Shown one piece after another: positions 3,369 to 16,233 of a stretch of DNA of 16,233 nucleotides. Source of the DNA: Candidatus Adiutrix sp. (GTDB lineage: Bacteria; Desulfobacterota; Desulfarculia; Adiutricales; Adiutricaceae); assembly GCA_031273445.1 (NCBI GenBank), contig JAISRV010000223.1, forward strand, positions 1 to 16,233, given 5' to 3'. Within the stretch, counting starts at the first letter, position 1. Every line of letters starts with the position of its first letter. The translations under genes were made by a program, and so were the position numbers. The notes under the pieces were generated by a model, which had not been told where the DNA came from, did not search any database, and saw nothing but the letters and a program-made list of their open reading frames with translations.

Positions 3369-4343
3369 ATGCGTAAAAACAAAAAATCAGGGCGCGCGCT
3401 AATCTTTTATTGTCTGCTTGGGCTGTCGCTGATTTGGCTATGCCAGGCTTGCAAACTGTCGCCCGGGTCCGGCGCCTCGCCGGCCTCTCCCGGCCAGGCC
3501 GAGACGCCGGCGCGACCGGCCGCGGGAGCTCCTTCGGCGCCGGCTCAAACCGGGGAAGACTATTTTAAAGCCGGCCGCTACGCCGAAGCCTACAGGGCTT
3601 TTCTGCCTAGAATACAGGCCGGCGACCTGGCCGCCGTATACTATGTCCTGGTCATTCGCCGCAACGCCTTGGACGGCCGGCCGGCCGACCTGGCCGAACT
3701 GGCGGCTCTGCGGCAGATACTGGCTCTGCGCGCCGAAGTCATGCGCGCGGCCCTCAAAAAAGGCGCCTTGGCGCCTGAAACCGAAGGGGTCTATCGAACC
3801 GCCCTGGCCGAACTGGCCTACTTCGGCCTTGACGATCTGAACGTCTGGCCGCCTCCGCCCCGGCCGGATTCCAAAGAAGTCAGAGCCAGAGTCCGCGCCG
3901 CCCAGGCTCTGGTCGCCCCGGCGGTTTTCGCCAGATTTGCCCCGGCCCTTAATTTCATGGCCCGCCTCGCCTGGGAACCGGTCAACGACCACTCGGTTCA
4001 AGTCTTCGTTTACACCTCCAGGGCCGCCGCCGCCGGCGACCGTATGGCCATGGGCAACCTCGCCTGGCTCTATCGCGACGGCATTGGAACCGGGAAAGAC
4101 GACTTGCGGGCCGCCCACTGGGCCCGCGAAAGCGCCGCCGCCGCGCCGCCGGTGGCGCGCGGCCTCAATGAAGCGGGTTGTGCCTATGAAAGCGGACGCG
4201 GCGTCACCGCGAGCCTGGGCGAGGCCCAAGTCTGGTATGAAAAAAGCGCGGCTCAGGGTCATCCCGCCGGTCAGGCCAACCTTGAGCGCCTGCGGAACGA
4301 CAGCCGGGAGCCGCCGGTTCTGGACAACTTGATCATGTTTTAG
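3369..4343 (+). CDS. Sel1-repeat protein with N-terminal export signal, possible lipoprotein
   Basis: 324 residues. The N-terminus is basic (MRKNKKSGR), followed by a hydrophobic stretch at about 10-24 and Cys28 in LCQACKL. That is a poor but possible lipobox (Cys at -3, Ala at -1). A Pro/Ala/Gly-rich spacer follows (about 30-57), typical of exported proteins. The first helical repeat-like part is about 60-200. At about 219-305 there are two or more Sel1-type repeats, with AMGNLAWLYRDGIGTGKDDL and then AGCAYESGRGVTASLGEA plus WYEKSAAQGHPAGQANL. Sel1 repeats are alpha/alpha solenoids used for protein-protein contacts, often in envelope or secretion proteins. A GGGAGAG sits just before the ATG. 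A 41-base gap separates it from rsmE, so it may share that operon. The partner is unknown. Confidence 0.8.
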   Translation: MRKNKKSGRALIFYCLLGLSLIWLCQACKLSPGSGASPASPGQAETPARPAAGAPSAPAQTGEDYFKAGRYAEAYRAFLPRIQAGDLAAVYYVLVIRRNALDGRPADLAELAALRQILALRAEVMRAALKKGALAPETEGVYRTALAELAYFGLDDLNVWPPPPRPDSKEVRARVRAAQALVAPAVFARFAPALNFMARLAWEPVNDHSVQVFVYTSRAAAAGDRMAMGNLAWLYRDGIGTGKDDLRAAHWARESAAAAPPVARGLNEAGCAYESGRGVTASLGEAQVWYEKSAAQGHPAGQANLERLRNDSREPPVLDNLIMF

Positions 4344-4393
4344 CCTCCTGTTGCAGCTGTGGTTGAAACTGATGTTTAGCGAAACAAAATGAT

Positions 4394-5812
4394 ATGGTTA
4401 ATTGTATGGCTCCCACTGGAAAAGGTCAGCGAAAATCAGTAAAATATAAAGTAATACTAACTATTTTAATTGTTTTATTAATATTATTGGCTTATAGCCA
4501 TTTATCGAATTATAGGGTAAATCAATCGAAAGATCAGGCTTTACGAACGGAAAAAGATTTATACGCGGCAAACAAATATTACTTTTCGATCATTCTGGAT
4601 TTGGATAGTGACGGCGTGGAAACGGCGGGTTTGGAAGCCGGGGTTTACTTTGATCACGACGGCAACCGTTTCGCCGAGAAAATGGGCTGGGTTGGCTCTG
4701 ACGACGCCATCTTGGCGCGGGATCTCAACGGCAATGGGCAGATTGACGACGGCGGCGAGATGTTCGGCAACAACGCCATTTTGGCCAACGGCCAGAAAGC
4801 GGCCAGTGGTTTTGAAGCCCTGGCGGAACTGGATGCCAACGGCGACGGCGTGGTGGATCAGAACGACGAAGGCTTTTCAATTTTAAAATTGTGGCGTGAC
4901 GCCAACGGCAACGGCACGGTGGAAGAAGGCGAACTGCTGACCTTGACCGAGGCCGGGGCGGCGAGTTTGAACGTGGCTTACAGCCGGCGGAATTACACCG
5001 ACGAAAACGGCAATGAGCACCGGCAGGGCGGTTCCTTCACCCGCGAGGACGGCTCCACGGGCCAGATGGCGGACGTCTGGCTCAAAAACGAATTGGCGGA
5101 CAGCCGGTATCTGGACAAAATAGAGGTGAGCGAGGCGATCGCGGCCCTGCCGAAACTGAGAAGCTACGGCCAAGTTGCCGATTTATGGCAGGTCATGGCC
5201 AGAGATGAAGGCGGCGCCCTGCAAACCCTCTTGGAAGAGTTCGCCGACTCCGATCCGCAGACGGCCAAAAACCTGGTCTGGGACATTATCTTCGCCTGGA
5301 CCGGGGTGACGGAACTTGACCCCGGCTCTCGCGGCCCCAACATCGGCGACGCCCGCAAGCTTTACGCCATGGAAAGACTGTGGGGCCAGGATTTCTTGTC
5401 GCTCGACGGTAATGGGGTCTACCACCGCGAACCTCACGCCATAGACAGCGTGGAGCTTAAAAAAGCGTTTGCCGACTGGGAGCAAAAAATATTGTCGTAT
5501 TTGCTGCTCAATAATCAGTATGCCGATCTGTATGCCCTGGTCGTCCGGGGCAGCCGGGCGCGGCAAGCCGGGGCGAGCGAGGCGGAGGCCCTAAGCCCGC
5601 TATTGGAAGCGTTCGGCGATTTATATGCCAGCGGGCTGGAAGCCGACCGCAGCAGAATAAGCGATTTTATGGCCACGCTCAAAGTCTATGACTCCAGAGG
5701 CTTGGCTTGCGTGGAAGCGCTTAAGTCCTATTACATTAAGACAAAACCCGCTGACGAATTTTCCGATTTCGACACGCTGATCCACGGCGGCGGGGACGAC
5801 GTCCCAATGTAA
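4394..5812 (+). CDS. Membrane-anchored calcium-loop protein, derived from an RTX-type protein and lacking the RTX repeats
   Basis: 472 residues. A short basic N-terminus is followed by one membrane segment at about 20-34 (VILTILIVLLILLAY), predicting a single-pass anchor with the rest outside the cytoplasm. Residues about 65-200 match the module found in large RTX/hemolysin-type calcium-binding proteins. It has repeated EF-hand-like loops: LDLDSDGVET, YFDHDGNRF, ARDLNGNGQIDDGGEMFG, LDANGDGVVDQND and RDANGNGTVEEGE. A mostly helical part follows to about 455. The protein ends at DTLIHGGGDDVPM, which looks like the first turn of a GGxGxD RTX repeat, then stops. No RTX array or type I secretion tail follows. 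The first ~180 bases are clearly AT-rich, unlike the GC-rich remainder, which suggests a chimeric 5' end. No good ribosome-binding site precedes ATG 4394 or the alternative ATG 4406. The role is unknown. Confidence 0.75.
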   Translation: MVNCMAPTGKGQRKSVKYKVILTILIVLLILLAYSHLSNYRVNQSKDQALRTEKDLYAANKYYFSIILDLDSDGVETAGLEAGVYFDHDGNRFAEKMGWVGSDDAILARDLNGNGQIDDGGEMFGNNAILANGQKAASGFEALAELDANGDGVVDQNDEGFSILKLWRDANGNGTVEEGELLTLTEAGAASLNVAYSRRNYTDENGNEHRQGGSFTREDGSTGQMADVWLKNELADSRYLDKIEVSEAIAALPKLRSYGQVADLWQVMARDEGGALQTLLEEFADSDPQTAKNLVWDIIFAWTGVTELDPGSRGPNIGDARKLYAMERLWGQDFLSLDGNGVYHREPHAIDSVELKKAFADWEQKILSYLLLNNQYADLYALVVRGSRARQAGASEAEALSPLLEAFGDLYASGLEADRSRISDFMATLKVYDSRGLACVEALKSYYIKTKPADEFSDFDTLIHGGGDDVPM

Positions 5813-6079
5813 AATGTAAGTTGAGGGGTGGTCCAATGACTTATTTTGCGCTTTTTTATAATCCTTTTTTGTAATGCTCTTGCCCTGCTCAAAATTGTCC
5901 TCCTTCGCTTTCAGTTGATTTTCCGTCAGGCTGAACAGCAATGCCCCGCTCTCCCTCAAAAACAGCTTGACAAATGGGGAGCCCCGCATATATATTGTAA
6001 CTAAAGTTAAATCATATTTTCACGGCAAATGCTTGACTGCTTGACGTCTCTTTTTTAGCGGTGTTGGGGCATCAGTGCG
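5813..6079. other. Non-coding spacer after the calcium-loop protein
   Basis: AT-richer than the flanks, with T-runs near 5851-5870. No convincing gene, terminator hairpin or promoter was found. A minus-strand open frame (5989-5621) runs through here but mostly lies antisense to the preceding gene. Confidence 0.5.
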
Positions 6080-6220
6080 AACTGGCAGCCCGCAAAAAAA
6101 TTTCGTGAGGTCAGCGGCGTCAAGCCCCCTTTGAGGGGGCCATGCCTTTACAAGCCGCCGGTTCTGCCGGAGGCATTTGACTTGGCGTCAAATCGTGGCT
6201 AACCCCCGACCTCGCCAGTT
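6080..6220. ncRNA. Cloverleaf-like inverted-repeat element (candidate structured RNA or small repeat element)
   Basis: A nested fold can be read by eye. The outer stem is AACTGGC (6080-6086) with GCCAGTT (6214-6220). It continues as GAGGTC (6107-6112) with GACCTC (6208-6213) after a 20-base bulge. Inside are three consecutive hairpins. GCCCCC 6124-6129 pairs with GGGGGC 6135-6140. GCCGCCGG 6154-6161 pairs with CCGGAGGC 6167-6174 with one G-A mismatch. ATTTGAC 6175-6181 pairs with GTCAAAT 6187-6193. The pieces cover most of the 141 bases. I recognise no known riboswitch, and no run of T follows as in a terminator. It could be a transcribed RNA, a multi-copy intergenic repeat or an end of a mobile element; strand is undetermined. 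Confidence 0.4.
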
Positions 6221-6329
6221 TAACGCGTTTATTTAAGGTATCTGCCTGATGCTGAAAAACACTGCGATTATATATGGTCAGCCTGAATCTCTTCGTCCCT
6301 GCTTCGGGGCCATAGTTGGCACGATTAGT

Positions 6330-6395
<66 letters not shown>

Positions 6396-6589
6396 ACTAA
6401 CTATTTAACTATTTTCCGTTTAAATCTTTTTTTATTCCATTCGCGGTCTGAAGCCCTAAAATTCATATTCCGTCCGTTTTTTGCGGCCCAGCTCGTCGCC
6501 GTCCTGGGCGGAGGCGGTTCTTTTGGCCTTTCGGCTGGTCGGGGTTGGTCGCAGCCAAGCCAAAAACGCGAATTTTTGTCGTCCGGGAT

Positions 6590-6619
6590 TTGCATATTTA
6601 ATCGCTGGCTCTGTATTAT
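6590..6619 (+). promoter_or_regulatory. Candidate sigma-70 promoter for the formate/nitrite channel gene
   Basis: TTGCAT (6590-6595) and TATTAT (6614-6619) are separated by 18 bases, close to the TTGACA/TATAAT consensus, about 55 bases before the ATG. A small GCGC...GCGC hairpin with a T-rich loop (6623-6637) would lie in the leader. This is a sequence match only. Confidence 0.35.
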
Positions 6620-6673
6620 CCGCGCTTTTTTAGCGCATCGCGACATATTATTGATTAAGGAGGTTTCAGGCAC

Positions 6674-7534
6674 ATGAAGAACCTTAAGACATCGGGCGAA
6701 TGTATTTTATCTGTATGCGCCATCGGCCGAGGCAAGCCGGAACTGCCTTTGTCCAGAAATTTGATTACGGCTTTTTTCGGCGGGGCCTATATCGGACTCG
6801 GCGGGCTTCTGGCGATCAAGGTCGCGGCCTCCATGCCCCTGGAATATTGGGGCGGGCTGCAAAAACTCGTTTTCGGCGGCGTCTTCCCGGTAGGCCTTTT
6901 GCTGGTTCTGGTGGCCGGGGCGGATTTGTTCACGGGCAACTGCATGTATATGCCGGCGGCCGTGCTGCATGGAAAAACCGGCTGGCGCGGGCTGATGAGA
7001 GTCTGGATTATTTCATACGGCGGCAACTTCGTCGGCGGACTGGTTGTGGCTTTTTTCCTGGGATATTCGACCGGAGTCATGTTTGACGTCGGCTCGGACG
7101 GCTTCATGCCGCTGGCGGCTTATAGCGTAAAACTCGCCAACGACAAGTGCGCCCTGGCTTTCGAGACCGCCTTTTTGCGCGGGGTCGGGTGCAACTGGCT
7201 GGTTTGCCTGGCTATTTATATGGCCCTGGCCGCTGAGGACGGGGTCTCCAAAGCCATCTTGCTCTGGCCTCCGGTCACCGCCTTCGTGGCCTTGGGCTTT
7301 GAACACAGCATCGCCAATATGACTTTTATTCCCCTGGGCCTTCTGATCGGCTCGTCTGAAATTTATATTAATAGTTCGGCGCAGCTACCGGCGCTTTCCG
7401 CCGATTTATACGGGTTGTTGGTCGCCAACCTTATTCCGGTGACTCTTGGCAACATCGTCGGCGGCGGTTTATTTGTGGGTATGTTCTACTACAAAGCCGC
7501 CGGGCTCAAACCCGACGTTACAGCGGTCGGCTGA
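6674..7534 (+). CDS. Formate/nitrite transporter (FNT) family channel
   Basis: 286 residues, the normal size for FocA/NirC/HSC-type pentameric inner-membrane channels for formate, nitrite or hydrosulfide. Membrane segments recur through the protein. The family hallmarks are present: FFGGAYIGLGGLL in helix 1, AGADLFTGNCMYM (Thr87, at the omega-loop/slit region), YGGNFVGGL, RGVGCNWLVCLAIYMALAA, and ALGFEHSIANM. His211 in this last motif corresponds to the pore histidine (His209 in E. coli FocA). The close is LIPVTLGNIVGGGLFVG. The strong site AAGGAGG (6657-6663) sits 10 bases before the ATG. No formate or nitrite enzymes are next to it, so the substrate cannot be fixed; in an anaerobe formate is a reasonable guess. 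It appears to be transcribed alone. Confidence 0.93.
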   Translation: MKNLKTSGECILSVCAIGRGKPELPLSRNLITAFFGGAYIGLGGLLAIKVAASMPLEYWGGLQKLVFGGVFPVGLLLVLVAGADLFTGNCMYMPAAVLHGKTGWRGLMRVWIISYGGNFVGGLVVAFFLGYSTGVMFDVGSDGFMPLAAYSVKLANDKCALAFETAFLRGVGCNWLVCLAIYMALAAEDGVSKAILLWPPVTAFVALGFEHSIANMTFIPLGLLIGSSEIYINSSAQLPALSADLYGLLVANLIPVTLGNIVGGGLFVGMFYYKAAGLKPDVTAVG

Positions 7535-7624
7535 ACAGGGCTGTCGTCGACAAATAGAAGCTAAATTTTCGTCAAAAATTGTAACTACAACAGCGAGTTC
7601 AACCTTTTTAACCTGGGCGGAGGC
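7535..7624. other. Spacer between the channel gene and the minus-strand gene remnant
   Basis: About 90 bases, AT-richer than both sides. No clear terminator hairpin or promoter was seen. It probably marks the border between chromosomal sequence and the mobile-element region. Confidence 0.4.
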
Positions 7625-8523
7625 TTGGTGGCGGCTCCGGTCGGCCGCCTCCTCGGCCAGGTTGCGGATGTCCGTTGGCCGGTTGCGCACATAGGCCTGG
7701 GCCATCTTCTTGGCCACCTCCATAACTCGCTTCACCATCTCCGGCGAGTCGGCCAGGTTGACGACCTTGCGCGGCCGGCCCACGGGCCGCTTGGCCGGGG
7801 CCGCTGGCGCGGCCGCTTCGGCGGCCGCCGCGGCCGGCCCGGCGCGGACTTCGCGTCCGCCCTAGGTCAGCCAGCGGTCGAAGATGCGACGCACGTCGTC
7901 GTTGACCAGCGGCGGAAGTTTATCATATCCCGGCGCAGCTGCCCGTAGGCGGCCATGTCGCCGATCTGATCCAGCGGGGTGGCCAGCCGTATTCGTCATA
8001 TTGCCCGTCCACGCTCTGGTTGTTCGGGTTGGCCGGGCGCGACGATATTCGCTGGAAGGGCGCGAGGCTGGCCTCGACGGCGGCCTTGAACTTGTCGTTG
8101 GCGTCGTAAGGTTCCAGAAATTCCAAGAGCAAGGCCCGGTCGGCGGCCTTGAGGCGGCTGGAAGGTATCGTACAAAGCGTTTTCCAGCAGCGCGTCCAGC
8201 TCGGCGTAGGCTTGTTTCTGTTCCCGCCCCCGCTTTTTGAGCCCAGCCCTCAGTCCATCCCGGTTAAGCTCGACTATCTCCCCATCATCAGCGATCTCAA
8301 CCTTCATGTTCCGGTATTTGGATAGCAGCCACTGAGCCAGTGCTCCGGTGTTCTTCAGGTCAATGGGCCGGCCTTCGTCGTCCACAATCAGCGCGGGATC
8401 GATCTCCACCACATCGGCGGTGCGCCTCAGCGCGGCCTGCTCGTAAGTCTTCTGATCCAACCGCCGCACCTCCCCGCCCAGGCGGCTCCAGTCCCCGCTC
8501 CGGCCGAAGACCTGGGCAAGAAT
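7625..8523 (-). pseudogene. Broken paralogue of the giant polyvalent protein gene
   Basis: Read on the minus strand from about 8523, the remnant starts GEVRRLDQKTYEQ, compare AGEVRRLDQ at 9928-9954 of the big gene. A domain of about 60 residues (ALAQWLLSKYRNMKVEIADD ... LDALLENALYDTF) resembling the LPD3 type of polyvalent-protein-associated domain follows. After a frame change comes SRLKAADRALLLEFLEPYDA, nearly identical to 13336-13395, with five residues missing shortly after. Another frame change gives LATPLDQIGDMAAYGQL (compare 14749-14802), then VRRIFDRWLT, an in-frame TAG (complement of 7862-7864), GGREVRAG, the AT-hook AKRPVGRPRKVV, and the start of the sigma-like region (AKKMAQAYVRNRPTD). 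Similarity ends near 7625. With frameshifts, a stop and large internal deletions it cannot make a full product. Confidence 0.85.
7764..7800 (-). repeat. 37-bp perfect inverted repeat, left copy
   Basis: Its reverse complement is identical, base for base by eye, to 15260-15296. It encodes the AT-hook (AKRPVGRPRK) in the minus-strand remnant. The two copies face each other across about 7.5 kb, so recombination would invert the DNA between them. Confidence 0.9.
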
Positions 8524-8526
8524 TTA

Positions 8527-11500
8527 ACTTCAGGATCCAGCACGGCGGAGCAAATAACCAAAGCCTTTAACGGCATCGCCGACGCCATAGCGGTAGGCTC
8601 GGCGGACCATATAAACCGCCTGGCGGCCAAGGTCGAGACGGCGGTGGCCGGGGGCAAGACCCTGGAACAGGCCCTGGCGGACGAGGGCCTGACCTGGGCG
8701 GGGCAGCCGCAGACGATCCAGGCGGTGCTTCAGCGGCTGAAAGACAGGGGCGTCGTCCCGGCCGCGACGATCGCGGCCCTCAACCCCAACTCAAACCCTA
8801 ACCCAGAGCCGCAGCCGGGGGCGGCTCCTGTAGAGCAAACCCCGGCGGAGGCGGCCGATGACGGAACAGCAGGCGCTGACGCAAATAATCAAACTAATCA
8901 GCCGGTGGAAACCCCTGCCGGAGAAGCTGACCAGTCAGCTGGATCAGGAAACGCTGCGCAAAGTGCTGAAGCTGGTGCGACAACTCCAGGACCAGGGGCT
9001 GTCGGGAGCGGGCTACAAGACCCCGGCCAGGCTGGCGGCAATGCAGAAAATAATCGAGAGCTGGACGGCCGGCCCGGCTCAAGCACCCCAAATACCCCCC
9101 CAGCAACGGGCGGCGGAGAGCCTGGCTTTCAGGACGATACACGGGCAGACGGCGCTGGATCAGAGACGGACCTTGACGGAACTGAGGAAGAGGCCCTAGA
9201 CGAGACGGAGGAAGAGGCCGCGGACGAGACTGAAGACGAGACTGAGGAAGAAGAAGAAGAAGAGACGGCCCTGGACCCGGAGATGGAAGCCTTCATCAAG
9301 GTGATGGCCGAGAACCCCGACAACTCCCTGGAAGAGTTCCAGGAGGACTTGGCGGGGCTGGACCCGGAGACGGCCGAGAACTGGCTTAACCACTTCCAGG
9401 CTTACCGGGCGCTGGCGGGGAACCCCGGCGCGGCGGAGCTGAGGGAGCGGATGAAGGGGCTGCCCCTGGGGGCGCTGACTATTATAACGAACCAACTGAA
9501 CCAGCGGCGGGCGGACGTCCTGGCCAGGATGGACGCCCTGGATGATGAATTTGAAAGTAGTCTGGAGGGAAACGATGAATCGGGCGATGCCTTACGGGAT
9601 GGTCGGGGAGTCGACGGGAGAACGGGAAATACCAATATTGGCGAGGATGGAGACGGCGACGTAGGTGCTGATGAAAGTGGTGTGGGAGACGCCGCCGACG
9701 GAAGAAGCGGCGGGGAATCCAGGCCGGCCGCCGGAGCGAACGCCAGGGTTGAAGCCGTGCTTGAGCGAGCTCTCCTCGACGCCGGACGAAGCCCCGAGCA
9801 GGCCCGGCTCAGCTCCGTAATCCTCGGCGCGTTTTTCCGGGAGGCTCTGCGGCCCCTGGGGGTGGACCCGGCCCAGTGGGTGAGGAACAAACTGGCCGTG
9901 GTCGACGTCTCCGGCGGGCGGAGCGTGGCCGGGGAAGTGCGGCGGCTGGACCAAAGTGGGGAAAACCCTAGAGTAACTTCTGATGAAGTTCGGCGGATAT
10001 CAGAGCTTCGGGCGCGAACCTGGAAGCATATCGGGTCTAACGGTTCCAAACATACTTTGTTTAATGCGGGCCTCTTAGTGCGCCAGGGCGCGAGTGGCCC
10101 CTGGCGGGCTCTTATCCAGCAAAAACTTAACCTGGCTTTGCGGTTATCCGACCCTGTGCTGACTGATTTCCTGCAAACCATGTTGAATACCCCGTCTCCT
10201 TATAGTAACATTACAGATGCTCGGGAGTTTTTGCGCCTGCAATATGCCGAAGGCGGGTTCAACGCGACGGAGGCCGAGGAAATAATCGAGGCTGTTTTCC
10301 CGCTTCTGGAGCGGGCGGCGGAAATGTTCAACGTCGAGGCCGTCGATATAGCGCGTGAGCTCCCCGTTAAGGTCGTATCGCCAAGTATGCTGGGCGCCGG
10401 CGTTATGGCGGCGACTTACAAAATTTATTGGCGCAATGAGGTCGCGTCGATACTGGACGTGTCGTCTGATTTACGGAAGATCGCGGGTGTGGGCAGCCGC
10501 TCGCCGATGGATGTGATCGCCCATGAATATGTCCATGCATTGCTGACTCAATTTATTGACGCTCCGCAGGTGCAGGCGCTGGCCCAGGCGGTGCAGACCG
10601 CCGCGGCGCCTTACTGGGTGACGCCGAACCCATACCCGATGTCCGCGTCAAAAACTGACCGCGCACATTGGTGGGGTCGGCACATGCCGACTAAATTTGA
10701 TTTTGTATCCGATGACTTCAAATATTTTTACGCACCCACGGAGCTGGTCGCATTTGGGTTTGAAGGTTATTTGTCCGGGCAAGCGCCTATGTCCCAAACC
10801 TTTGACCAGGCGGACGCTAATTTTGCTTCAGCAATAAAGGCAATGGGAACCCGTGGGGTGACGCCTGAAGCGATATACGGAAAAATCGGGTTGCCTGTCG
10901 GCAGTAAAGTGTGGCGGGGAGATACCCCGGCTTTGACGACCTTTTTCCAAGATTTGGGGGCTTTATATGACCAGAGAAGATCAGATAATTCAAAAAGCGT
11001 TCCAAGAGCTACGGGAACGGTTCAAGCGGGTACAGGAAATGCCCGGAACAGAAATGTACAGAGTACACCAGGTAGTGGAAGCGCAGCGGAAAATGAACGA
11101 GAGATTCGAGAAAGCGCATCGGGAGAACCCGGAAGAACCTTTGGTGGAAGCGATCCTGACGTAGAGACGAATGAACGGAGAAGGACCTACTTCCAGTCCC
11201 CCCTCGCCGCCCCCCTCGCCGCCCCCCTCACCCTGAGCGCCTGGCCGGTTTTGGCCAAGCATAACGGCAAGACCATGCCGGCCAGGCAGCTCAGGGAGAT
11301 CATAACCAACGCCCAGATCAAGAACCAGGACCGCGAGCTCCTCTTAGACTTCCTGCGCCTTTACCCCGACAGCCAGAAAATAAATTTCGACGACTTCCGC
11401 GAAGCGGTCAATATGACCCTGGAACCGCTGGGGCGCGTATCGGAAAGCAGATACGCCGACGTCGGGCTGGACAAAGTCAGCCTGCCGCCCCGGGGGCGGG

Positions 11501-14500
11501 ACGACGCCGACTATTCCCTTATCCTTCAAGACCCCTCTATCGAACACGGAAGCACGAAGCATTGGAGCGAGCTGGCCAAAAACGCTTTTGGCCATCTGCG
11601 CTTCTGGCTGCGCGGCGAGGTCGCCTACGTCGCCGAGATCCAGAGCGACTACTTCCAGTGGGACGCCCGCGTGGACGCGGAGGCCGGACGCTGGGCGGCC
11701 AATGACCCCAACGCCCAGCGCGCGGCCAGGGACTGGCTCATGTATAACTGGAAGCCCCCGGCGGAGCTCCAGCAGCGGCTGGACGCCGCCGAGGCGTCGT
11801 TTGGACGACTTTCCAGAAAACAGATAGCTGAGCAGAACCGGCTGCTCGACGCCAAGAAGGCCGTCGAAGATGAAGGGCGGGCGCATCGGCGGGCTCTTTA
11901 CGGCCAGCCTGAGGAAGTCGCCCGCGGGCGACTGGCGGAGCTTGACGTTATTGAAGAGGCTTTTAAACAGGGCCGCGACCTGACCCCGGAGCAGCTTGGA
12001 TTTTTTGCCGGCCTATTTCCTGCCGACGCTTACCAACAGGCCGTGCGGGATGAGTATTCGACCTATTCGCGAGCGAAAGGCAAGCAAAAGGTTTCTATAG
12101 GGAGGAGCCTTTTGCGGGACATAAAGAGAGCCCGGACGTACGCCCTGAACCGCGCCGAACGCCAGACGCACGACAAAGCCCTGGCGGAGAATGAGGAATA
12201 CCGCGACATCGTGCGGAGGCGGACGGAGGCCAAGGACGCCTACGATCAGTACGTCAAAAAGTCCTCGGTGCTGAAGGAAGACGCCGCGGCCGAAATGGAG
12301 ATAATAAAGGACGAAATAAGCGCGGCGCAGAAGAAAGCCTATGGGGAGCGCCTGGTTCTCGAAGCCAAGAGGCTGGCCTCGGCCCCGGGCGACTACGCGA
12401 CCTGGACCCCCTCCGCTGAGTGGGCGCGGCGAGACCAGGCGCTCCAGGCTAAGATGGACGAGATTGAGGCCAGGTACGACCGGCTGGACGCGCCGGTCAG
12501 GAAACGGCTGGATGAGATTAAACGACGCCAGCAGCGGCGCTCCGCGGAAGTAAGGGAGGGCCTGTCTCATAAGCAGCGACTCAGCTTGTCCGGGACGTCC
12601 GACGCCCTGGCCCGCGACGCCGAGTTCAGGGCGATTATGGAAGAAGAAGTCCTGGCTCTGCAGGAGCTGAACGCGCTTGACGACGAAAAGAAAAAGGAGC
12701 TGAATCCGCTATATAATGAACGGCATAAAATGGCGATGGAAAGGGTGGACGCCTGGAACGCCGAGCTTGATCGCCGGCTGGCGGCCTCGCCCCCGCCCGA
12801 CGCCTGGAACGCCGCCGAGAAACGCTTCCTGGCCTTCGCCAATAACGAGCTTTACCAGGACCGCCTCATCCGCGAGGCCGTGGATGAGGCCGTTCGTCAG
12901 GGCCGTGAGACCGTCGCTTTCCCGACGCCTGACACGCTGAGCAAGATCGAGGGCTACGGGCTGGAAAACCTGCCCCCGGAAGAGGAAGAGGCCATACGCC
13001 GGATGGGCGGCCGCCGCGTGGCCCAGCAGCGCATGAAGAAGAGAACCGCCCCCATCCTCAAGAAGTACGCCGACCTGCCCAAGAAGCTGGCCAAATTCTA
13101 CGGCGCCCAGAACGTCACCCAGGACGGCGATTGGGTCTACCTCAACCTGACCGGCGAAATAAAAAACCAGCCCATTACTTATTACCAGTCCCCTCTCGCC
13201 GCCCCGCTGACCCTCTCCGCTTTCGACGACCCGGCCTTCAAGGCCTGGCCGAAGAATAAGCTCGTCTCCGTGGCCGAGCTGCGGGCCTTCGCCACGCCCA
13301 AGACCGACAAGAAGACCGGCCGGGAGCTGCCCAGCCGCCTGAAGGCCGCTGACCGGGCCTTGATCCTGGAGTTCCTGGAACCCTATGACGCCAATGAAAA
13401 GTTCAGGGCCGGCGACTTCCAGGCCGCCGTCGAGGCCGGCCTTGCGCCGCTGGAACGGGTAACGTCCGCTGACTATGCCAATTATGGCCTGGAAGATGTT
13501 TATCCGCCGCTTCCGGGCGTGCTTCCTGATGACGGCGAGTACTCGCTCATCCTACAAGACCCGGCCGTCAAACACAATTACGCGGGTCATTGGGGTAAAC
13601 AGGGCGCCAACGCTTTTGGGCATATACGCGTCTGGCTGCGCGGCAAGACTGCTTACATAGCCGAGACTCAAAGCGATTATTTCCAGCAAAAAGCCCGTTT
13701 CGATAAAGCGGTTGGGCGTTTTGGCGTTTCAAGCGAAGCCGCGTTACGTAAGGCTGAAACCTGGGCTGATAAAAATTGGACGACCTCGGCCGAGCTTCAG
13801 CAAAGGCTTCGTGACGCCGAGTCCGAGTGGCTGCCGCTTGCGAAAAAGGAGCGGGAGGCGGAGGCTCAACGGGGGATTCAGTCTTATAAAACCGCGGCTG
13901 AAACAAGGAAATATATAAAAGAGCGTTATGGCCGCCCAGGAGATGCGCATTACGATAGTAAAATGGCGCGTGCGCTTCTTGGTGTTGTAAAAGCCTATAG
14001 CTACGATTATTTAACCCCGACCCAAAGAGATGCGCTGGCCCGTGATGAAAATGTTCAACTTCTTTTACGACGGAGGGATAAAGAGAAGGAGGACTCGTGG
14101 CAGGAATATGGTAGAGCCCGCGCGGCGGCGGCGGAAGCTCGCGACAAAGTAAGCGCGATAGAAGAAAGCATAAGAACAGAGAGGGCGAAGGCCGTCAAAG
14201 AGCGACAGATTATCGAAGCTCAAATGATGGGGCGAAAGCGACGCACGTCTGTCAAAAACCCGGCTGACGGCTGGAATGCCGCCGAGGAACGCTTTCTCGC
14301 TTTTGCTGATAACGAGCTCTACCAGGATCGCCTCATCCGTGAGGCCGTGGCCGAGGCCATGCGCCAGGGGCGTGACGCGGCGGCCTTTCCTACGGTTGAA
14401 ACACTCCGCCAGATTGAGGGCTATGATCAGGCAGGTGCTGGATTTGTTATAGATGGGGGTAAGTTAGCCCCTATCCTCAAAAAGTACGCCGACCTGCCCA

Positions 14501-16233
14501 AAAAACTGGCCAAATTCTATGGCGCACAGAACGTCACCAGCGACGGCGATTGGGTCTACCTCAACCTGACCGACGAGATCAAAAACCGGCCCATGCCCTA
14601 TTACCAGAACACGCCCCAGGGCGTGGCCCGGGGCTTTATGTCCCTTCTGGACAACAACCGGCTGGCCCTGGCCTTCACCGAGGCCAGCGACGCCTCCTCC
14701 CCCATTCATGAGGGCATGCACGTCATTCTGGAGACCGTTCGGCAGGTGCTGGCCACCCCGCTGGACCAGATCGTCGACATGGCCGCCTACAATCAGCTGC
14801 GCCAGGAGATGATCACCCTCCGCGAGTGGATGGGCGAGACCAACCCTGAGGACGTGACGGCCGAGCCCAGCCGCCGGGGGCACGAGCGGGCGGCCGTGGG
14901 CCTGGAGACCTATATGATGGAGGGCAAGGCTCCCACCCCCGAGCTCCAACCCCTCTTCGACAAATTCAAATCCTGGCTCATGGGCGTCTACCGCACCGTC
15001 AGGGAGCTGCTGGATCGGACGCCCGGCTCCAAACCACTCAACCCCGAAATACGCCGCATCTTCGACCGCTGGCTGACCGAGGGCGGGCGGGAAGTGAGAG
15101 CCGGACCCGCCCCGGCCCCGGCCGCGGCCGCGGCGGACGCGCTCGGCCGGCCGGCAGGGTCAGCCGCGGCGACCGCCCGCGCCTCTTCGGGCGGCGCGGC
15201 CACGCCCATGGGGGCGACCGCCTCGGCCGTCGGGACCTCTTCGGGCGGCGCGGCCACGCCCCCGGCCAAGCGGCCCGTGGGCCGGCCGCGCAAGGTGGTC
15301 AAGCTGGCCGACTCGCCGGAGATGCCGCTCGACATGCAGAAGCGGCTCATAGCCGCGGCCAATAAAATGGCCCGGAATTACCTGCGCAACCGGCCCAGGG
15401 ACGTCCAGGTTTCGGTTGAGGACGCGGCCTCGGAAGCCGTGACGGCGGCCCTGGCCAAGTGGCCCAATTATAACCCGGCCAAGGGCGCCGACTTCCTGAC
15501 CTTCGTCCATCAGGAAATGCTGGGCGCGATAGAAAAATTCGCCAACCCCACCAACCTGGCCAGGTCTTACAACAACGACGAAAAATACATCCGCAACAAC
15601 CTGGACAAAGCCGCCAGGGAGGCCGGCGTCGTCGACAGCCGGGACCCGGTGGAGCTGGCCGCGGCCCTCAACGCCTACCGCGCTTCCGACCCTAACGTAA
15701 CCAAACAGGGTGTGGTCTATACCCCGCCCCAGATTCAAGCCGAGCTGGAATTTCGGAGGCTGAACAAAATCGCTTCGCTCGACAAACCCGCGCCGGGGGC
15801 GGAAGACGGCGAGGAAGGTGACCCGCTGGTCGAAACCCTGGCCAACCCGGGCGCCCGCGCCGACCTCAGCCTGGCGGCTGAGGAAACCGCCGACCGCGAC
15901 CGGGGCATCGTGACCGACAGCGCCGCGACCTACTTCATCACCCATGACCCGGAGCTGCGGGCGCTCATGCTGGAAGAGGCCGACTTCTCGGAGGTCGAGC
16001 GCCGGCTCTTCGACCGCACGCTAGTCGGCGACGACGACGCGAGAAACCCCAAAGTTTTGGCCAAGCTGCCCGGCGTGGGGAAAGACAACCTTCTGCCCCT
16101 CCTGCAAAGCATACAGGAGAAGACGGCCGAGGCCGTCGACCGGCTGCGGGAGACGCGGCCGGAGCTGTTCGAGAACATGCGGGCCGTGCTGCAACTGGAG
16201 CAGGGGCCGGCCCCCGACATCGAAGACGCCCTC
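8527..16233 (+). CDS. Giant polyvalent protein: two HExxH domains, duplicated EIQSD modules, AT-hook and sigma-70-like region (3' end outside window)
   Basis: One frame is open from 8326 to the window's last base without a stop; coding character begins near 8527, giving 2,569 codons and continuing. Order: helical N-terminal part (8527-8814), acidic/disordered linker (8815-9282), helical part (9283-9550), disordered linker (9551-9740), a segment with LGAFFREALRPLGVDPAQW (9805-9861), metallopeptidase-like domain with HEYVH (about 9960-10960), linker, module 1 (11188-13179), module 2 (13180-14598), second HExxH domain (14599-15075), Ala/Pro linker, AT-hook, and sigma-like region (15310 on). This domain pile-up is typical of polyvalent proteins of phages and conjugative elements, thought to enter the host with the DNA. 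No ATG, GTG or TTG lies in frame between 8326 and GTG 8644; the first ATG is 9283. The 5' end is therefore probably lost at the junction with the minus-strand remnant, or translation begins at GTG 8644. Confidence 0.88.
8858..9199 (+). CDS. Nested ORF (113 residues) in an alternative frame under the first linker
   Basis: It begins MTEQQALTQIIKLISRWKPL and reads as a Leu/Gln-rich, helix-like protein. A GGCGGAGGCGG lies just before the ATG and an upstream TAG (8831-8833) bounds the frame. In the first 50 codons I count about 74% G/C-ending codons here, against about 32% for the giant gene's frame over the same bases; the region's real genes end codons mostly in G/C. So this frame looks like the original coding frame, and the giant protein's Gly/Ala/Ser/Asn-rich linker is what results from reading it shifted. 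No family recognised. It could be a live overlapping gene or a fossil. Confidence 0.35.
   Translation: MTEQQALTQIIKLISRWKPLPEKLTSQLDQETLRKVLKLVRQLQDQGLSGAGYKTPARLAAMQKIIESWTAGPAQAPQIPPQQRAAESLAFRTIHGQTALDQRRTLTELRKRP
9154..9282 (+). other. Acidic low-complexity tract in the giant protein
   Basis: In the giant gene's frame this reads as a run dominated by Glu and Asp (for example EEALDETEEEAADETED), ending in about six consecutive Glu. Such tracts are disordered linkers or DNA mimics; here it separates the N-terminal helical part from the next helical part. Confidence 0.85.
9542..9664 (+). CDS. Short nested ORF (40 residues) under the second linker
   Basis: Begins MMNLKVVWRETMNRAMPYG in the same alternative frame as the 8858 ORF. 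It also lies under a Gly/Asp/Ser-rich disordered linker of the giant protein and has more G/C-ending codons than the main frame. There is no strong ribosome-binding site. Weak on its own; it is listed because the same pattern occurs three times in this gene. Confidence 0.15.
   Translation: MMNLKVVWRETMNRAMPYGMVGESTGEREIPILARMETAT
10480..10800 (+). other. First zincin-like metallopeptidase core (HEYVH) of the giant protein
   Basis: The motif DVIAHEYVHALL carries the HExxH zinc-binding signature (His 10522-10524, Glu 10525-10527, His 10534-10536). About 68 residues on, APTELVAFGFEGYL supplies a Glu (10741-10743) that fits the third-ligand helix seen in polyvalent-protein metallopeptidases (usually E-x-x-A-R-x-F-E). 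The upstream part back to about 9960 is AT-richer than the rest and has a mixed helical fold. Catalysis is plausible because all core residues are present; the substrate is unknown. Confidence 0.7.
10967..11164 (+). CDS. Nested ORF (65 residues) under the third linker
   Basis: Begins MTREDQIIQKAFQELRERFK, charged and helix-like, preceded by GGGGG about 7 bases before the ATG and bounded upstream by TGA (10934-10936). About 58% of its codons end in G/C against about 29% for the giant gene's frame in the same stretch, which there encodes a Ser/Gly/Asn/Arg-rich linker. No family recognised. Confidence 0.3.
   Translation: MTREDQIIQKAFQELRERFKRVQEMPGTEMYRVHQVVEAQRKMNERFEKAHRENPEEPLVEAILT
11188..13179 (+). 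repeat. EIQSD module, copy 1 (664 residues, with a ~380-residue helical insertion)
   Basis: It opens with YFQSPLAAPLAAPLTLS (containing a short PLAA tandem repeat). It then has LLDFLRLYPDSQ, DYSLILQDPSIEHGSTKHW, FGHLRFWLRG and AYVAEIQSDYFQ (EIQSD at 11635-11649). These match a module common in phage polyvalent proteins, where the motif is EIQSDWHQ after LAHVRF; I do not recall its formal family name. From 11659 to about 12798 lies a long Glu/Lys/Arg/Ala-rich helical, coiled-coil-like insertion. The module resumes at DAWNAAEKRFLAFANNELYQ, TLSKIEGYG and KKYADLPKKLAKFYGAQNV, ending at TYYQ. It shares a nearly identical 129-base block (13048-13176) with copy 2. Confidence 0.8.
13180..14598 (+). 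repeat. EIQSD module, copy 2 (473 residues, with a ~190-residue helical insertion)
   Basis: Same order as copy 1: YYQSPLAAPLTLSAFDD, LILEFLEPYDANEKF, EYSLILQDPAVKHNYAGHW, FGHIRVWLRG, AYIAETQSDYFQ (13660 on; Ile replaced by Thr). The helical insertion (13687-14262) is half as long as in copy 1. Then come DGWNAAEERFLAFADNELYQ and KKYADLPKKLAKFYGAQNV. The block 14467-14595 differs from 13048-13176 at about 14 of 129 bases. Tandem duplication followed by separate changes in the inserted coiled coil explains the pattern. Confidence 0.82.
14599..15075 (+). other. Second zincin-like metallopeptidase domain (HEGMH) of the giant protein
   Basis: ASSPIHEGMHVILETV carries HExxH (His 14707-14709, Glu 14710-14712, His 14719-14721). 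Downstream, GHERAAVGLETYMMEGKAPT and LFDKFKSWLMGVYRTVREL match the closing part of phage polyvalent zincins (usually HExFARxFExYLxEGKAPS, then a trailing LxxWLxxIYR). The likely third ligand is Glu 14884-14886. The usual Phe-Ala-Arg is Ala-Ala-Val here, but the metal residues remain. A remnant of the same domain is present in the minus-strand pseudogene. Confidence 0.75.
15183..15263 (+). repeat. Imperfect internal repeat in the Ala/Pro linker
   Basis: The bases encoding SSGGAATP occur at 15184-15207 and again at 15238-15261, identical over about 25 bases. They lie in the flexible linker just before the AT-hook. Slippage or small duplications in a disordered linker explain it. Confidence 0.8.
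15260..15296 (+). repeat. 37-bp perfect inverted repeat, right copy (encodes the AT-hook)
   Basis: Reverse-complement partner of 7764-7800. It encodes PAKRPVGRPRK, an AT-hook (GRP core flanked by basic residues and proline), a minor-groove DNA-binding motif. Confidence 0.9.
15310..16150 (+). other. Sigma-70-like region within the giant protein
   Basis: After the AT-hook, AAANKMARNYLRNRPRDV leads to VEDAASEAVTAALAKWPNYN, then PAKGADFLTFVHQEMLGAIE. This follows the sigma region 2 pattern (D-x-x-x-E-x-x-x-x-L, F-D/N-P-x-K/R-G, F-x-T-Y/F, closing A-I). A region-3-like part follows, with PPQIQAELEFRRLN and IASLDKPAPGAEDGEEGDPL (compare the SLD-P ... ED ... L-D blocks of sigma factors). Last, DFSEVERRLFDRTLVGDDDA ... 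VLAKLPGV ... SIQEKTAEAVDRLRE (15985-16155) is a weaker match to the region 4 helix-turn-helix. The region 2 match is the strongest and region 4 the weakest. No structure or search was run. Confidence 0.6.

Follow-up and report, generated by a model that had tools for sequence, protein, structure and literature searches.

The window analysed here is an entire contig of 16,233 bases (C63) from an assembly of Candidatus Adiutrix sp. (2.79 Mb in 439 contigs, 71.7% complete). Its right-hand part is occupied by a large polyvalent-type open reading frame (ORF) of 2530 codons on the plus strand (8644-16233), which runs off the contig end. From sequence comparison and a structure model, the C-terminal approximately 300 amino acids of this ORF are read as a divergent sigma-70-family domain. 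A first-pass annotation had placed a sigma-70-like module on the C-terminal side of a polyvalent-type protein, and this was borne out by a Pfam Sigma70_r2 match, by the predicted fold and by a zincin in the same chain.

A sigma-like module behind a phage-type zincin

The chain is arranged in the order zincin, linker, AT-hook-like motif and sigma regions 2, 3 and 3.2, possibly followed by region 4. The zincin-like metallopeptidase comprises residues 1986-2147 (14599-15084, plus strand) with HEGMH at residue 2022, a conserved Glu and an EGKAP motif. It is followed by an Ala/Pro/Gly-rich linker (15091-15258, plus strand; second codon position 89% GC) and by the motif KRPVGRPRKVV (15268-15300, plus strand; core KRPVGRPRK at about 15268-15294). 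Initially this was called an AT-hook. The motif is present and is kept in a decayed duplicate described below, yet Pfam AT_hook scored 12.1 bits against a cut-off of 17.4; therefore we name it AT-hook-like only. Its core GRPR also occurs in two of the 47 closest proteins (P0035 and P0042).

The module begins with a sigma-70 region 2-like segment, DAASEAV...YNPAKGADFLTF...GAI (15367-15525), identified by Pfam profile, sequence match and fold. Region 3-like helices with approximate bounds follow at 15544-15771 (sequence match and fold), then a region 3.2-like loop, ASLDKPAPGAEDGEEGDPLVETL (15772-15855), whose SLD-acidic motif lies downstream of region 2 in the expected order. Structure comparison suggests a last, region 4-like helical domain (15922-16200); all parts are on the plus strand. 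Support is good for region 2, moderate for region 3.2 and weak for region 4. The earlier description of a region 2 with region 3-like and weaker region 4-like parts thus holds for regions 2, 3 and 3.2, and region 4 stays weak.

In a search of the own genome Pfam Sigma70_r2 matched at 15367-15513 with 24.3 bits (E 6.7e-5; cut-off 24). It scored below the cut-off with the 328-aa module (21.7 bits, E 1.7e-4) and with the whole ORF (18.9 bits, E 0.0013). Among 14 control genomes this model matched in 10, all of them bacteria. PHROG 351 (sigma factor) matched module residues 38-202 with E 0.0012; this is weak evidence because the profile also matches in three archaeal controls. TIGR02937 likewise matches in archaeal controls. 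In a single-sequence search with the module across 395 genomes of the phylum, the 394 others returned two weak matches only. The best match outside the own contig was a FliA-type sigma with E 0.0019 per genome, which is not significant across 395 genomes, and the sole other one was an unrelated enzyme (identities by eye). In a profile alignment without secondary structure against about 228 segments, a segment that contains the module ranked top at 31.9, the next at 25.2. A global MAFFT alignment was set aside; it misplaced region 2.

The module was further modelled by template-free, single-sequence AlphaFold with moderate confidence. A Foldseek comparison with sigma factors had been proposed as a check of the first-pass annotation; ranks 1-12 were sigma factors or their complexes, none at E 0.001. 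VIA-align gave sigma in all 50 rows listed, again none at E 0.001. T4 gp55 was among the structure matches; the region 4 segment alone matched weakly. The subgroup signals differ: structure rows put sigma-28 first, tied with others, whereas pairwise sequence scores favour RpoD-type sigmas. The Pfam profile, the module's top sequence match and the structure rows all share the region 2 signal and so are not fully independent.

Codon-position GC (GC2 0.37-0.49, GC3 0.81-0.89) indicates real coding sequence. The frame of the long ORF is open back to 8326 without ATG, GTG or TTG and, by eye, no clear ribosome-binding site precedes the GTG start. Therefore, the N-terminus is uncertain. The metallopeptidases noticed at first in this chain reduce to the zincin at 14599-15084; the possible first zincin consists of an HExxH motif only, HEYVH at residue 627 (10522-10536, plus strand). 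Between them lies an internally repeated region (11500-14607, plus strand), with 72-89% DNA identity between pieces and without a convincing Pfam match. The repeat pairs are 11500-11658/13528-13686, 12792-12956/14259-14423 and 13048-13188/14467-14607, with offsets of 1.4-2.0 kb.

Relatives of the zincin and the reach of the fusion

Bbp10 of phage BPP-1 and proteins resembling it are relatives of the zincin (PHROG 9880, E 3.2e-31), which matched in 40 phage records with 24-52% identity at 2-8% query coverage. With its long multidomain chain and a phage-type zincin, the protein is of polyvalent type. Bbp10-like proteins are termed lysins in some sources (available part of PMC9239159). The record of phage Jess A also annotates its Bbp10-like protein as a lysin.

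Gene context was inspected in eight phage records, four of which (BPP-1, AF, CP2, vir555) encode annotated internal virion proteins just upstream on the same strand. Stabilization, peptidase, lysis, head-adaptor or hypothetical genes adjoin the zincin gene in ctEw122, Jess A and MZH0603, and hypothetical genes do so in Lbo-JY46. In another genome of the genus (G003) a 20 kb stretch encodes, as one run, two tail and two internal virion proteins and a transglycosylase, after which comes a polyvalent ORF of 2232 codons. Loci with flanks of up to 5 kb were collected for the best 80 of at least 581 viral relatives and the best 80 of 148 genomic relatives, and the zincin ORF was located in 76/80 and 75/80, respectively. 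There the chain extends beyond the EGKAP/EGKA motif by a median of 1176.5 (viral) and 1150 residues (genomic), some being cut by contig ends. As far as 16233, the protein in the window has the linker, the AT-hook-like motif and the module in place of the usual chain.

Other long proteins were seen in passing. In the own genome, contig C218 carries two more polyvalent ORFs (3390-7916, 1509 codons; 7867-12285, 1473 codons; locus L055). Both have ART-PolyVal, the second below cut-off; the first also contains LPD3, and the second shows weak similarity to phosphoribosyltransferases. The sigma motif was not found in either. A 4739-codon open frame in genome G023 (L056, 833-15049) contains a zincin of the same family. 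Leptolyngbya phage Lbo-JY46 (genome 125 kb) encodes a 2748-aa protein with two HExxH motifs and zincin similarity (L013, 7327-15573).

A search for the same fusion in other genomes, also proposed at the outset, yielded a decayed copy on the own contig and none elsewhere among the sets searched. The searches centred on this zincin type; sigma fusions in other polyvalent types were outside their reach. Outside the own contig the module had no confident relative in a protein database (8000 and 7998 candidates scored), in any of 97 other relatives, in viral contigs, phages, genome contigs or plasmids, or in the six other genomes of the genus. None of the 47 closest proteins, of three more polyvalent ORFs, or of the 80 viral and 80 genomic loci had the sigma motif (viral: match strand only). 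Against these loci phmmer with the module returned best E values of 2.2 and 2.8, i.e. no relative. Sigma70_r2 at E 0.1 was found in none of the eight phage proteins and in none of the 18 scanned of the 47 closest proteins. Using the FliA-like sigma of the host, tblastn gave matches in 174 phage records, 50 of them listed; giant sigma fusions may exist among those 174. At the sensitivity used the zincin-sigma fusion is a single truncated case with a decayed sister.

The sister is a decayed inverted copy of the polyvalent gene on the minus strand (7613-8159), recognized by sequence similarity. It holds pieces of the repeated region and of the zincin, a short linker, the AT-hook and the start of region 2, but an in-frame stop and changes of frame interrupt it. 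From the end of the zincin it passes through a shorter Ala-rich linker to PAKRPVGRPRKVV and the first helix of region 2. Identity to the long ORF is 45% over 141 columns, 43 of which are gaps, with one in-frame stop. In the AT-hook stretch 18 of 20 codons are identical between the copies; in the next stretch compared 15 of 23 differ. Because two diverged copies share the order zincin, linker, AT-hook and region 2, a chimeric assembly is unlikely. Beside the duplicate, another polyvalent-like piece was noted by eye (8160-8470, minus strand).

Of the eight ORFs scanned upstream of the long ORF, six have Pfam matches expected of common chromosomal genes (cytidylate-kinase-like, amidohydrolase, PrmA, RNA methyltransferase, Sel1 repeat, formate/nitrite transporter), and no phage structural genes were seen on the 16,233 bases of contig C63. 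Upstream of the long ORF we found these chromosomal genes and the decayed copy instead of a phage late-gene or conjugation context; downstream the contig ends. The last 244 bases occur once in the assembly. Directly before the formate/nitrite transporter gene, an ORF without Pfam match (6249-6677) contains a long Ser-Leu repeat, a tract that is possibly slippage-prone.

A possible transcription factor for DNA entry

How can a sigma-like module behind a phage zincin be explained? We propose that a divergent sigma-70-family domain was captured behind the zincin of a phage polyvalent-type protein to serve as a virion-delivered early transcription factor, an explanation for which we see an even chance. 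Virion delivery is plausible by homology only, because in some BPP-1-like phages and in one genome of the genus relatives of the zincin are encoded in late-gene runs alongside internal virion proteins. By this homology the protein would be, or would have been, produced together with the late virion proteins, packaged into particles and injected along with the DNA. The AT-hook-like motif may keep the module near the incoming DNA and the zincin may free it, a release step which the first-pass annotation had itself labelled speculation. Region 2 would then bind host core RNA polymerase and starts would occur on promoters of the element before any of its genes is expressed. Such a role would parallel that of the N4 virion RNA polymerase, which uses its own catalytic core; phiKZ is a further case of an injected polymerase. 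In its strongest form the proposal is tentative and rather doubtful: a phage lineage might eject a sigma factor that forms part of a polyvalent protein able to process itself and is tethered to the incoming genome by the AT-hook-like motif, and so turn host RNA polymerase to element promoters at entry.

Alternatively, the sigma-derived module may be a decoy which binds host RNA polymerase but blocks or displaces the host sigma, with no start at element promoters. Among the beta-prime contact positions of region 2.2, numbered as in E. coli sigma-70, the acidic D403 and E407 are kept in the module, while Q406, N409 and M413 are changed to S, V and L; the FliA-like sigma of the host also deviates there. 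In place of the aromatic pair W433/W434 the module has Q and E. Kept acidic residues next to a missing aromatic pair, together with the weak region 4, would suit a decoy. However, the FliA-like sigmas of these genomes are also without this pair, and a module that simply blocks could do without the ordered regions 2, 3.2 and possibly 4 that are retained here. We regard a decoy as unlikely.

Several findings weigh against an early transcription factor. At the locus, the adjoining inverted copy is broken, the upstream genes are ordinary chromosomal ones, a convincing start is missing and the contig ends inside the gene. The locus may be a prophage remnant because it adjoins host genes and a decayed copy, and the module then would be part of a decaying piece without present function. 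We give this little credence in view of 2530 codons without a stop and a strong codon-position bias throughout the module. Other findings concern the identity of the module. Home-made hidden Markov models (HMMs) of FliA-, RpoH-, RpoD- and ECF-type sigmas (one of 28 sequences and three subgroup HMMs, group labels by eye) missed it: the former gave 0.3 bits, within shuffle range, and the latter did not list the protein. Because they miss the module itself, their silence on its relatives is uninformative. In the above profile alignment the module as cut scored 24.4, under two control segments. A further reading is that the module is no sigma but a helical DNA-binding or structural unit whose brief likeness to region 2 arose by chance or convergence. 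The silence of these narrow HMMs, a single-sequence model of moderate confidence and Pfam scores around the curated cut-off or under it would fit this reading. It is very improbable, as Pfam, best match and structure rows all point to sigma factors and the SLD-acidic motif of region 3.2 comes where it should after region 2.

Comparison with known systems

Polyvalent proteins were defined in PMC5512222, the main text of which includes MPTase, RNA polymerase and the N4 virion polymerase; in this main text, figures and supplements aside, the word sigma is absent. PMC7824862, in the part available, handles phage sigmas and polyvalent proteins separately. In the literature searched, available parts of PMC7824862 and PMC3974807 included and bioRxiv and most subscription papers outside its scope, no sigma module joined to a polyvalent, ejection or virion protein was found. 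This agrees with the first-pass remark that no described case of a sigma-like module and metallopeptidase domains in one chain was known to its author. Transcription capture at entry is represented by the injected polymerase of N4 and by T4 Alt, an injected modifier of host polymerase, and a jump-start of transcription by polyvalent proteins with the host's enzyme was proposed as a general theme (both in the part available of PMC5512222). If our proposal is true, an injected sigma factor would add another way to such capture, and the jump-start via the host's enzyme would become directly testable.

The protein resembles the polyvalent proteins of BPP-1-like podophages (Bbp10 type, PHROG 9880) in its zincin with HExxH and EGKAP and in its very long multidomain chain. 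Genes of this type follow runs of internal virion proteins in several phages and in one genome of the same genus. Unlike the Bbp10 type, with usually about 1150-1180 residues after the zincin, it has an AT-hook-like motif and a sigma module. It shares with the sigma-28/FliA and other sigma-70 factors the regions 2, 3, 3.2 and possibly 4, in order. It differs from them in that the module is fused to a giant protein, carries an AT-hook-like motif at the place of region 1, is very divergent and has an altered region 4. Like stand-alone phage sigmas, e.g. T4 gp55 or those of the SPO1 type, it would be a sigma used by a phage to steer host RNA polymerase; to our knowledge, the known stand-alone ones are separate small genes expressed during infection. 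As in the N4 virion RNA polymerase, a polyvalent protein with RNA polymerase and MPTase, a transcription function and a zincin are joined in one chain. The N4 chain acts at entry and brings its own catalytic polymerase, whereas the module described here would redirect the enzyme of the host.
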